DNA from: Emticicia sp. BO119
Lineage (GTDB): Bacteria > Bacteroidota > Bacteroidia > Cytophagales > Spirosomataceae
Reading direction: 5' to 3'
Assembly: GCF_013912375.1 (NCBI RefSeq)
Contig: NZ_JACETV010000003.1
Coordinates: 1-64,000 of the forward strand
DNA length: 64,000 nucleotides
Made by a program: the position numbers and the translations under genes. Below are positions 1 to 1,102 of this stretch, piece after piece (the first letter of the stretch is position 1; every line of letters starts with the position of its first letter). The notes under the pieces were generated by a model that saw only the letters and a program-made list of their open reading frames with translations, had not been told where the DNA came from and did no database searches.

Positions 1-163
1 TCAACTATGATTGTGGGAAGTAATAACTTTAATAGTTCTCCGTAACTCTCTTGCATCTGTTCAATTAGTAAAATGCAAAGGTCTAAATTATTTTATCACC
101 CCACAACTTTTAGGTTTGATCCGTAATTTTCTTGTTTTTAGCCAAGCTCATCATTCAAGTGGC

Positions 164-214
164 GTCAAAGTCCCCTTGCTTTGTGCTATGCCGACGCACA
201 TGGGAGACTTTGAC
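164..214. repeat. Long imperfect hairpin upstream of the tRNA-like array
   Basis: The arms GTCAAAGTCCCC and GGGAGACTTTGAC are complementary apart from one bulged base. A second inner pair (TTGTGC with GCACA) lies inside, giving a stem-loop of about 50 nt that ends 16 bases before the tRNA-like sequence. No T-tract follows, so it is not an obvious terminator. It may be a palindromic repeat unit or a structured leader. Bases 1-163 hold no convincing gene. Confidence 0.5.
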
Positions 215-230
215 GGGACAGAACCGCCCT

Positions 231-320
231 CGGGGTGTAGCGTAGCCCGGTATCGCGTCTGCTTTGGGAGCAAAAGGCCGTCAACGGTCCGCCGCCGCGG
301 TTCGAATCTGGCCACCCCGA
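231..320 (+). tRNA. tRNA-Pro(UGG)-like gene with disrupted T arm
   Basis: The acceptor strands pair perfectly over seven bases (CGGGGTG at 231-237 with CACCCCG at 313-319), followed by discriminator A320. The D-arm region matches bacterial tRNA-Pro, and the anticodon loop TTTGGGA gives anticodon UGG. CCA is not encoded. The T loop TTCGAAT is at 301-307. The expected 5' strand of the T stem, which should pair with CTGGC, is replaced by GC-rich sequence at about 281-300, which makes the molecule about 13-16 nt too long and leaves only three of five T-stem pairs. The anticodon stem also has one C-A mismatch. It could be a pseudogene, or a functional tRNA carrying an unusual insertion. Confidence 0.45.
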
Positions 321-328
321 CGTAAAAG

Positions 329-358
329 CCTTCTTGGAAGTGATTCTGAGAGGGTTTT
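329..358 (+). terminator. Intrinsic terminator of tRNA-like unit 1
   Basis: CCTTCT pairs with AGAGGG (one G-T wobble) and is followed by five T residues, just after the tRNA-like sequence. Confidence 0.6.
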
Positions 359-366
359 TGATTTAT

Positions 367-436
367 TATCGCGTCTGTTTTGCGAGCAGAAGGTCGTCAA
401 CGGTCCGCCGCCGCGGTTCGAATCTGGCCACCCCGA
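367..436 (+). pseudogene. tRNA-derived 3' half, copy 2
   Basis: This copy has the anticodon arm, T loop and 3' acceptor strand, but no 5' acceptor or complete D arm. The anticodon loop reads TTTGCGA instead of TTTGGGA, which would give UGC (Ala), and the anticodon stem is restored (TCTGT with GCAGA, one G-U). The GC-rich insert before TTCGAAT is the same as in copy 1. It cannot form a cloverleaf on its own. Confidence 0.65.
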
Positions 437-445
437 CATCAAAAA

Positions 446-478
446 GCCCTCTTGGAAGTGATTCTGAGAGGGTTTTTG
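446..478 (+). terminator. Intrinsic terminator of tRNA-like unit 2
   Basis: CCCTCT (447-452) pairs with AGAGGG (467-472), followed by TTTTT. Confidence 0.65.
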
Positions 479-484
479 GTTTAT

Positions 485-553
485 TATCGCGTCTGTTTTG
501 CGAGCAGAAGGTCGTCAGCGGTCGGCCGCCCCGTTCGAATCTGGCCACCCCGA
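485..553 (+). pseudogene. tRNA-derived 3' half, copy 3
   Basis: It has the same layout as copy 2 but a different insert before the T loop: GCGGTCGGCCGC, itself a small hairpin, followed by CCCG. The 5' acceptor strand is absent. Confidence 0.65.
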
Positions 554-557
554 CACA

Positions 558-592
558 AAGACCCTCTTAGAAGTAATTCTGAGAGGGTCTTT
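558..592 (+). terminator. Intrinsic terminator of tRNA-like unit 3
   Basis: AAAGACCCTCT pairs with AGAGGGTCTTT. The stem carries a compensated change relative to the other units (GACCC/GGGTC instead of AGCCC/GGG), so pairing has been kept. Confidence 0.65.
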
Positions 593-599
593 GATTTAT

Positions 600-682
600 T
601 ATCGCGTCTGTTTTGCGAGCAGAAGGTCGTCAGCGGTCGGCCGCAGAACGTCTGCCGCCCCGTTCGAATCTGGCCACCCCGA
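600..682 (+). pseudogene. tRNA-derived 3' half, copy 4, with enlarged T-arm insert
   Basis: It matches copy 3 except for about 14 extra bases within the insert (AGAACGTCTGCCGC). With them the insert can fold into a hairpin in which GGCCGCAGA pairs with TCTGCCGCC with one mismatch. The T loop and 3' acceptor strand are intact. Confidence 0.65.
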
Positions 683-685
683 CTA

Positions 686-719
686 AAAAGCCCTCTTGAA
701 GAAATTCGGGAGGGCTTTT
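686..719 (+). terminator. Intrinsic terminator of tRNA-like unit 4
   Basis: AAAAGCCCTC (686-695) pairs perfectly with GAGGGCTTTT (710-719). It closes the array and lies about 26 bases from the end of the convergent lipoprotein gene. Confidence 0.7.
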
Positions 720-745
720 GGCTTATTAATTATCAGTAATTTTTA

Positions 746-1102
746 TCATTTAGGTTTCGATTTTGCATATTCTCTGCCATCTGCTGAAAACCATTTCAAA
801 CTCCCCTCTTTATCAATAATCATATACTGGTCAGCTATAACCTCTTTGTACTTTAATCTTATTACATTATCTGTAGATTCCACCACCATTTCTTCGTTCA
901 GTACTGACTTATCATCAAAATTCTCATGGAGAAATACCTTCCCCTCTTTTTTATAAATCGTTACATCGACCACATTTTTATCAGGAGGCATCCATTGCCC
1001 GATAGCTGTACTATCAGCTACATGAACGGCCTGGGCTTTATCTTTTAATTTTCCGCAGGAGGTAAGGAATGCAGTAAAAATCAGCAGTAAATATCGGCTC
1101 AT
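746..1102 (-). CDS. Small lipoprotein of unknown function
   Basis: This is a 118-residue protein with an N-terminal hydrophobic signal ending in a lipobox (LTSC, Cys16), so it is predicted to be an exported lipoprotein. The mature part is short and has no family motif I recognise; its pattern of alternating charged and hydrophobic stretches suggests a small beta-rich domain. It is transcribed towards the tRNA-derived array and stands alone. Confidence 0.65.
   Translation of the reverse strand: MSRYLLLIFTAFLTSCGKLKDKAQAVHVADSTAIGQWMPPDKNVVDVTIYKKEGKVFLHENFDDKSVLNEEMVVESTDNVIRLKYKEVIADQYMIIDKEGSLKWFSADGREYAKSKPK

Follow-up and report, generated by a model that had tools for sequence, protein, structure and literature searches.

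A palindrome of about 16 nucleotides is found inserted into tRNA genes at one position, between bases 52 and 53 of the T-stem. This site-specific micro-palindrome is the main finding of our analysis and is worth specialist attention. It interrupts each of four tRNA-Pro copies that lie in tandem close to the start of the window, by which we mean the whole stretch of DNA analysed: the first 64 kb of contig C22 in an Emticicia genome of 6.57 Mb and 28 contigs (G000). By one response-regulator protein, the closest named relatives of this genome are Emticicia, at 98%, 95% and 86% identity. The array itself is most likely ordinary, dead DNA. In our reading, a duplicate of tRNA-Pro(UGG) with a mobile palindrome in its T-stem was amplified in tandem, without a promoter and, judging from sequence comparison, we would give this reading a probability of about 0.72. 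A function for the array appears unlikely.

Bacterial genomes commonly contain very short palindromic repeats, but clean before-and-after sites for them are hard to obtain. Here a tRNA gene provides empty and filled orthologous sites at one-base resolution. In genus g9, the gene for tRNA-Pro(CGG) is 75 nt long in three genomes (G018, G098 and G108) and 16 nt longer in two others (G086 and G071). The G086 gene consists of the empty gene plus 16 bases placed between GTCGTGG and GTTCGAATC, and nothing is duplicated or missing; in G071 the gene carries further changes beyond the insert. The DNA flanking the Pro(CGG) loci is collinear, no second Pro(CGG)-like gene was found in the five g9 genomes, and an intact tRNA-Pro(UGG) is kept in both G086 and G071. 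This is a precise 16-nt insertion at 52|53.

Did the insertion happen once or twice? A tree of the five loci sets each filled gene next to an empty one, G086 beside G018 and G071 beside G098, with support of 1.0. Taken as it stands, the five-locus tree would imply either that the same base was hit twice or that a single insertion was precisely lost again in some genomes. The case for two events depends on the tree because plain identity between the two filled loci (78.4% over 1268 nt) is no lower than that between filled G086 and empty G018 (78.0% over 2853 nt).

The element is composed of a CGG[T/G] tag and a 4-bp hairpin, whose loop is CGNN in most copies. Written as 17-mers that include G53, the copies read N-CGG-[T/G], then the 4-bp stem and 4-nt loop, and amount to 17 distinct sequences. 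Their stems are paired in 97.1% of 68 cells, 7 of which are changed on both sides; none of 500 shuffles reaches either value. Two other measures of covariation do not rise above shuffles: double-change pairs number one (reached by 499 of 500) and further pair types number five (reached by 136 of 500). The double changes are confined to one stem pair, and two subfamilies, CCGC/GCGG and CGGC/GCCG, explain most of the stem variation. Insert length is mostly 15-16 nt, with one insert of 30 nt (L040).

We also examined 49 contexts gathered with patterns that contain the insert and GTTCRA, a set that for this reason gives no measure of how often other sites are used. All four insert-stem pairs are present in 46 of them, and 35 pass a T-stem test that asks for at least 3 of the 4 pairs, although four Arg-UCU contexts fail it solely through a 15-nt insert and the pass of L187 is probably chance. 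Some rows of the insert-position table were set aside as artefacts: tRNA-Ser at 28 nt (L156, L157), L033 at 6 nt, three L188 rows that are off by one base, a double of L158 and one L040 row that belongs to another tRNA.

How widely is the element dispersed? The core CGGTCSGCCGC has 80 sites in 11 genus genomes, whereas the reversed pattern has 6; G006 is without the core. Of the 14 core sites in G000, six fall within tRNA copies, namely the four window units, a copy on contig C1 and a tRNA-Lys that belongs to a tRNA cluster. A less biased set of 55 distinct contexts came from a pattern without GTTCRA (loci L031-L041 and L056-L125, the first group of which had been chosen for tRNA context or array resemblance; two of the 20 core sites of G008, on C26 and C35, are left out). 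Thirteen of these contexts are in tRNA T-arms, all at one site and in one orientation, and 42 have no T-arm motif. The thirteen are not thirteen events, for five are the Pro copies of G000 and several are copies of one another. A longer pattern with at most 2 mismatches matches 93 of 150 genomes of the family, in part outside tRNAs. At the level of the order, with at most 1 mismatch, 34 of 390 genomes match, and outside the window's family only G051, G315 and G326 do; the one context viewed in each is not a tRNA. The patterns of both scans were derived from the insert, and the counts therefore miss some of the more divergent inserts.

Nine isoacceptors carry the insert at 52|53: Val(UAC), Arg(UCU), Arg(CCU), Arg(ACG), Lys(UUU), Thr(GGU), Pro(UGG), Pro(GGG) and Pro(CGG). 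For eight of them the insert-bearing copies lie behind or beside an intact tRNA; for Pro(CGG) it is the full-length gene itself that is interrupted. Some copies stand singly (for example Thr in L172, Pro and Arg in L045). Those of Val, Arg(UCU), Arg(CCU) and Lys occur in tandem, and arrays with a terminator in every unit comprise two Val copies in L160, three Lys in L158, three Arg in L156, several Arg(CCU) in L161 and two Arg in L157.

Copies outside tRNA genes have flanks of another kind. Direct repeats of at least 5 nt flank 10 of 57 such copies, and the mean repeat length is reached by none of 500 shuffled pairings, an excess to be read with the fact that many of these flanks are themselves repetitive; the tRNA sites differ in this respect. 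Inverted repeats in the same flanks show no excess (mean reached by 100 of 500 shuffles), and no empty site for one non-tRNA copy (L097) was found in the genus. Some non-tRNA copies, at about 1500 on the minus strand of L195 and at about 1500 in L177 and L178, lie directly before GTTCAA or GTTCGT, as the copies in tRNAs do, which may hint at the target sequence. Among viral contigs, 12 stretches matched the pattern and ARAGORN found a tRNA in none; five of the contexts resembled GC-rich coding DNA, and we take these matches as chance. The plasmid collection holds matches of about 50 nt to tRNA-Pro in two Persicobacter records.

In the window, a preliminary description had recognised a tandem array of four units with a period of about 117 bp, and independent measures agree with it. 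TRF reports a tandem repeat at 251-644 (period 118, 92% matches, score 641), and the direct repeats D1-D3 have spacings of 115-118 and 129. The units, all on the plus strand, adjoin one another every 115-130 bp without other DNA between them. Unit 1 (223-321) is a promoterless, full-length tRNA-Pro(UGG) copy at 231-321 together with 8 nt upstream that it has in common with the intact gene. It was first described as tRNA-Pro-like, and ARAGORN (tRNA-Pro(UGG) at 231-321) and Rfam agree, but the 16-nt T-stem insert ACGGTCCGCCGCCGCG at 284-299 means that it is not a normal tRNA. Its RF00005 score is 37.3 bits, while 41 of the 46 genome matches listed score at least 50 bits, and its anticodon stem has a C-A mismatch.

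The other three copies, at 367-437 (unit 2), 485-554 (unit 3) and 600-683 (unit 4), were said to have lost the 5' acceptor strand, to read UGC in the anticodon loop and to be incapable of acting as normal tRNAs. All of this stands: they begin with the bases TATCGCG of the D-loop, their anticodon loop is UGC, and each has a T-stem insert besides the missing 5' half. The unit 2 insert (400-415) is 16 nt and identical to that of unit 1; unit 3 carries the 15-nt GCGGTCGGCCGCCCC at 518-532, its hairpin partly decayed; unit 4 carries 29 nt at 633-661, of which a longer version, 30 nt, is found in a tRNA-Arg copy of G008 (L040). All four inserts are GC-rich and, by comparison with the intact gene, lie at 52|53.

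Every unit ends in a terminator hairpin, as the preliminary description had it: 323-360 (fold z -5.5), 442-477 (-6.0), 556-593 (-7.9) and 686-719 (-6.0). A pattern scan for intrinsic terminators, with a G+C hairpin and a T run, lists those of units 1-3; the fourth, inverted repeat I5, is absent from its list, and all four fold strongly. The stems of units 3 and 4 differ by paired A-T/G-C exchanges, read by eye. These compensated changes are real, but they had been taken to suggest that the hairpins are maintained, and that part does not follow from them. Both terminator types are also present on C1, the unit 3 type behind the intact gene and the unit 4 type behind a truncated copy. Because of this, the exchange need not date from the array and would give no sign of array maintenance. 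The unit 3 terminator differs from its counterpart behind the intact gene by one base, GGGTC in place of GGGTT, a G-U to G-C difference. An asymmetry is seen around the inserts. When 22 nt on each side are compared with the parent, every one of the four units has two changes on the left and none on the right, a pattern that simple decay would not predict; this is a very small sample, in which the two changes are common to units 2-4.

The intact gene is a 75-nt tRNA-Pro(UGG) at G000:C1:588-662, adjoining tRNA-Ser. Both genes have a full Bacteroidota-type promoter, TTTG-N-TANNTTTG, and the same holds in G001. The array resembles a functional tRNA-Pro(UGG) in neither of two respects: the T-arm is interrupted at 52|53 in all four units, and a consensus scan of the plus strand of window 1-760, array included, finds no TTTG-N-TANNTTTG promoter. 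The single -7-like box in that interval, at 111, falls within the end of an insertion sequence (IS). A sigma-70 pattern found 4 matches where 3.9 were expected by chance, and the Bacteroidota pattern was used instead.

Could the copies nevertheless be kept as RNAs, as regulators or as decoys for enzymes that cut or modify tRNAs, the hairpin in the T-stem acting as an additional functional arm? The insert hairpin is well paired across copies, and one insertion site recurs in nine kinds of tRNA. A -7-like box lies upstream of three full-length insert-bearing tRNAs, Pro(CGG) in G086 and G071 and Pro(GGG) in G008 (loci L217, L218 and L110), and on the evidence of this box some such genes are candidates that may be transcribed. 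In G000, the insert-bearing tRNA-Lys belongs to a cluster (L032) that adjoins a TROVE/Ro60 protein gene (PF05731, E 2.9e-27). The window array, however, is promoterless, and no unit RNA folds better than its shuffles (z -0.46, +0.70, +0.85 and -0.50 for units 1-4). Unit 1 is predicted to form no cloverleaf, whereas the intact gene is predicted to form one. The anticodon stem of unit 1 and the insert hairpin of unit 3 are damaged, and no comparable array appears among the matches listed for ten genus relatives. The preliminary proposal of a regulatory RNA thus finds neither a Bacteroidota-type promoter in or just before the array nor a distinctive fold, and we consider retention as RNA quite unlikely. 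The array is most likely dead because it has no Bacteroidota-type promoter, folds much as shuffled sequence does and has no like in the listed genus relatives.

The window begins at a contig end, within the 5' part of an ISL3-type insertion sequence that lies antisense at 1-146 (minus strand; its end at about 146 is placed by eye). Positions 1-122 are 84% identical to an IS that adjoins a tRNA-Pro attachment-site-like copy in G008 (L041). On C1 the order is tRNA-Pro(UGG), then the truncated insert-bearing copy, then the C-terminal part of an ISL3 transposase at the contig end (Pfam DDE_Tnp_ISL3, E 2.5e-22). In G001, tRNA-Ser and tRNA-Pro share a single stretch with one eroded remnant that bears the insert and with a homologue of the ORF that flanks our array at 746-1102 on the minus strand. 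This ORF is without a Pfam match and is 79% identical over 409 nt to L033; its homologue lies 3' of the tRNA-Ser/tRNA-Pro pair in G001, which ties the array to that locus. Synteny of the window and C1 with G001 holds on both sides. Because of this synteny and the IS parts at both contig ends, we place the array, most likely, originally downstream of the intact tRNA-Pro(UGG), split off from it by the ISL3-type IS, with the two contigs as a candidate join. A join of C1 and C22 through one IS fits in orientation; the bases that flank the two IS ends, read by eye, show no matching duplication, and we do not claim the join. An inverted repeat, CGTCAAAGTCCCC / GGAGACTTTGACG, lies at 163-215 between the IS end and the array.

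The position at a contig edge inside an IS also admits the reading that the array is a mis-assembled contig end. The four units, however, differ from each other in sequence, a truncated insert-bearing copy is present on C1 and a remnant in G001, and like arrays are found inside long contigs elsewhere (for example L160, L156 and L161). An assembly artefact is therefore highly improbable. The preliminary description had named a normal tRNA-Pro(UGG) elsewhere, no transcripts from the array and randomly decayed units in relatives as the marks of a dead duplication, and this case is borne out in part. The normal gene is present, with its promoter, on C1; among the matches listed for the ten genus relatives, an insert-bearing copy of this tRNA stands at the locus in G001 alone, as one eroded remnant. 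Insert-bearing Pro-type copies occur at other loci as well, as a Pro-like gene in a tRNA cluster of G008 and as Pro(GGG)-type genes in G001 and G008.

It had also been proposed that the copies are stacked attachment-site remnants, each 3' copy left by an integrase-borne island at tRNA-Pro. Like such remnants, the array copies keep the tRNA 3' end, and tRNA-Pro does serve as an integration site in relatives. In G003, an integrase (PF00589, E 1.7e-6) adjoins the intact gene, with a 3' fragment 43 kb off; in G029, another (PF00589, E 2.4e-16) adjoins a 3' half that has been displaced to a distance of 14 kb from the intact gene. Yet the two attachment-site-like copies that have a whole T-arm, in G008:C38 and G029, are both free of the insert. 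(The G003 piece starts at the T-arm and so falls outside this comparison; the 3' half in G008:C38 is of the same form.) The copies with a hairpin in G029 are found past its displaced 3' half. In the array, no tRNA 3' end borders an element with an integrase: there is no element DNA between the units, and Pfam gives no integrase domain for nine of the ORFs in the window's first 11 kb, among them a two-component pair, a symporter and a PMSR-type reductase. We regard the attachment-site origin as unlikely. Integrating elements leave partial tRNA genes that can mislead tRNA finders, according to van der Gulik et al. 2023 (PMC9897764). Compared with the fragments described there, the Emticicia copies are tandem, bear terminators and a T-stem hairpin, and have no island between them. 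Beyond the integrase island of G029 (L038:1700-2250), tRNA-Pro 3' copies carry a different T-stem hairpin, CAGG-ATCG-CCTG.

How might a dead tandem amplification have come about? The parent gene and its promoter are retained on C1, with the copies probably downstream and parted from it by the ISL3-type IS. A REP-like micro-element of about 16 nt enters tRNA genes at 52|53, in one orientation and without target duplication. The insert would persist in tRNAs that the cell can spare, either duplicates or isoacceptors that are redundant; redundancy would come from a second copy or, for Pro(CGG) and Pro(GGG), from the presence of Pro(UGG). Slippage at short common bases would then amplify the 3' part and the terminator as one unit. 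The Pro units join at TATC, which is found in the D-loop and behind the last terminator. Each copy would have its terminator because the 3' part and the terminator were multiplied together. The array resembles tandem tRNA gene duplication in that its copies lie head to tail behind a parent gene. Unlike plain tandem duplicates, units 2-4 are 5'-truncated, and all four units are promoterless with an interrupted T-stem.

A broader proposal, to which we would give somewhat less than even odds, is that the 16-bp element is still mobile. It would recognise the T-arm, insert repeatedly at 52|53, in one orientation and with no target duplication, in different tRNAs of one bacterial family, silence redundant tRNA genes and seed arrays of 3' halves. 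Few mobile elements are known to be as short as 16 bp. If it still moves, a putative enzyme acting in trans would be required, perhaps one that acts on single-stranded hairpins. Y1 transposases were considered as the mobiliser. A Y1_Tnp match is found in 130 of 150 family genomes, but element numbers do not track Y1 numbers: G108 and G164 have 26 and 14 element hits and no Y1 match, and G006 has nine Y1 matches and no element hit. These numbers do not support the candidate. A Y1-type transposase match at G001:C23:461919-462450 lies about 0.2 kb from an element copy.

The element is like REPs and REPINs in several ways. It is a dispersed palindrome, short and rich in GC, and its hairpin is accompanied by a conserved tag; both its dispersal (80 against 6 sites) and the upkeep of its hairpin fit the general description of a REP. 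As in REPINs, some relatives have it in inverted pairs, the two members separated by about 50-110 bp, for example G086:C22:35442(+)/35537(-) and G108:C2:4289026(+)/4289095(-). The tag-plus-hairpin form and the inverted pairs in g9 would, by analogy, make a REP-like Y1/HUH route attractive. In L153 (G108) the element lies on both arms of long hairpins, as in REPINs. It nevertheless stands apart from the GTAG and CGTC super-families as judged by published description, without family consensus figures. In the available part of that description (PMC3733652), GTAG stems are mostly 6-9 bp, unlike the 4-bp GC-rich stem and CGG[T/G] tag seen here, and CGTC repeats have AT residues at the first two stem positions; that part makes no mention of insertion into tRNA T-stems.

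Within the literature searched, which covered few subscription papers, we found no such T-stem insertion and no arrays of insert-bearing tRNA copies. Among known systems, the very small mobile elements of cyanobacteria called small dispersed repeats (Elhai et al. 2008) come close: they are reportedly about 21-27 bp long and enter genes for structured RNAs and also intergenic DNA. They are from another phylum and have another sequence than the Emticicia element.

Sites resolved to one base, together with one position shared by nine kinds of tRNA, make target choice, the chemistry of insertion and the cost of losing a redundant tRNA open to experiment. The insert is also a matter for annotation: ARAGORN calls several interrupted copies tRNA genes, and Rfam calls the copy at 231. 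The tRNA-Arg copies at L161:1050-1900 and the tRNA-Lys copies at L158:1900-2000 have extra hairpins of other sequence in the D-arm, anticodon loop or stem. The cluster L032 (G000:C25:184000-192000) has 11 predicted tRNA genes, some of them odd, with the insert in some members. A cluster in G008 (L118; G008:C5:33000-41000) has 15 predicted tRNA genes, some likewise odd, and the same T-stem hairpin is present in some of its members.
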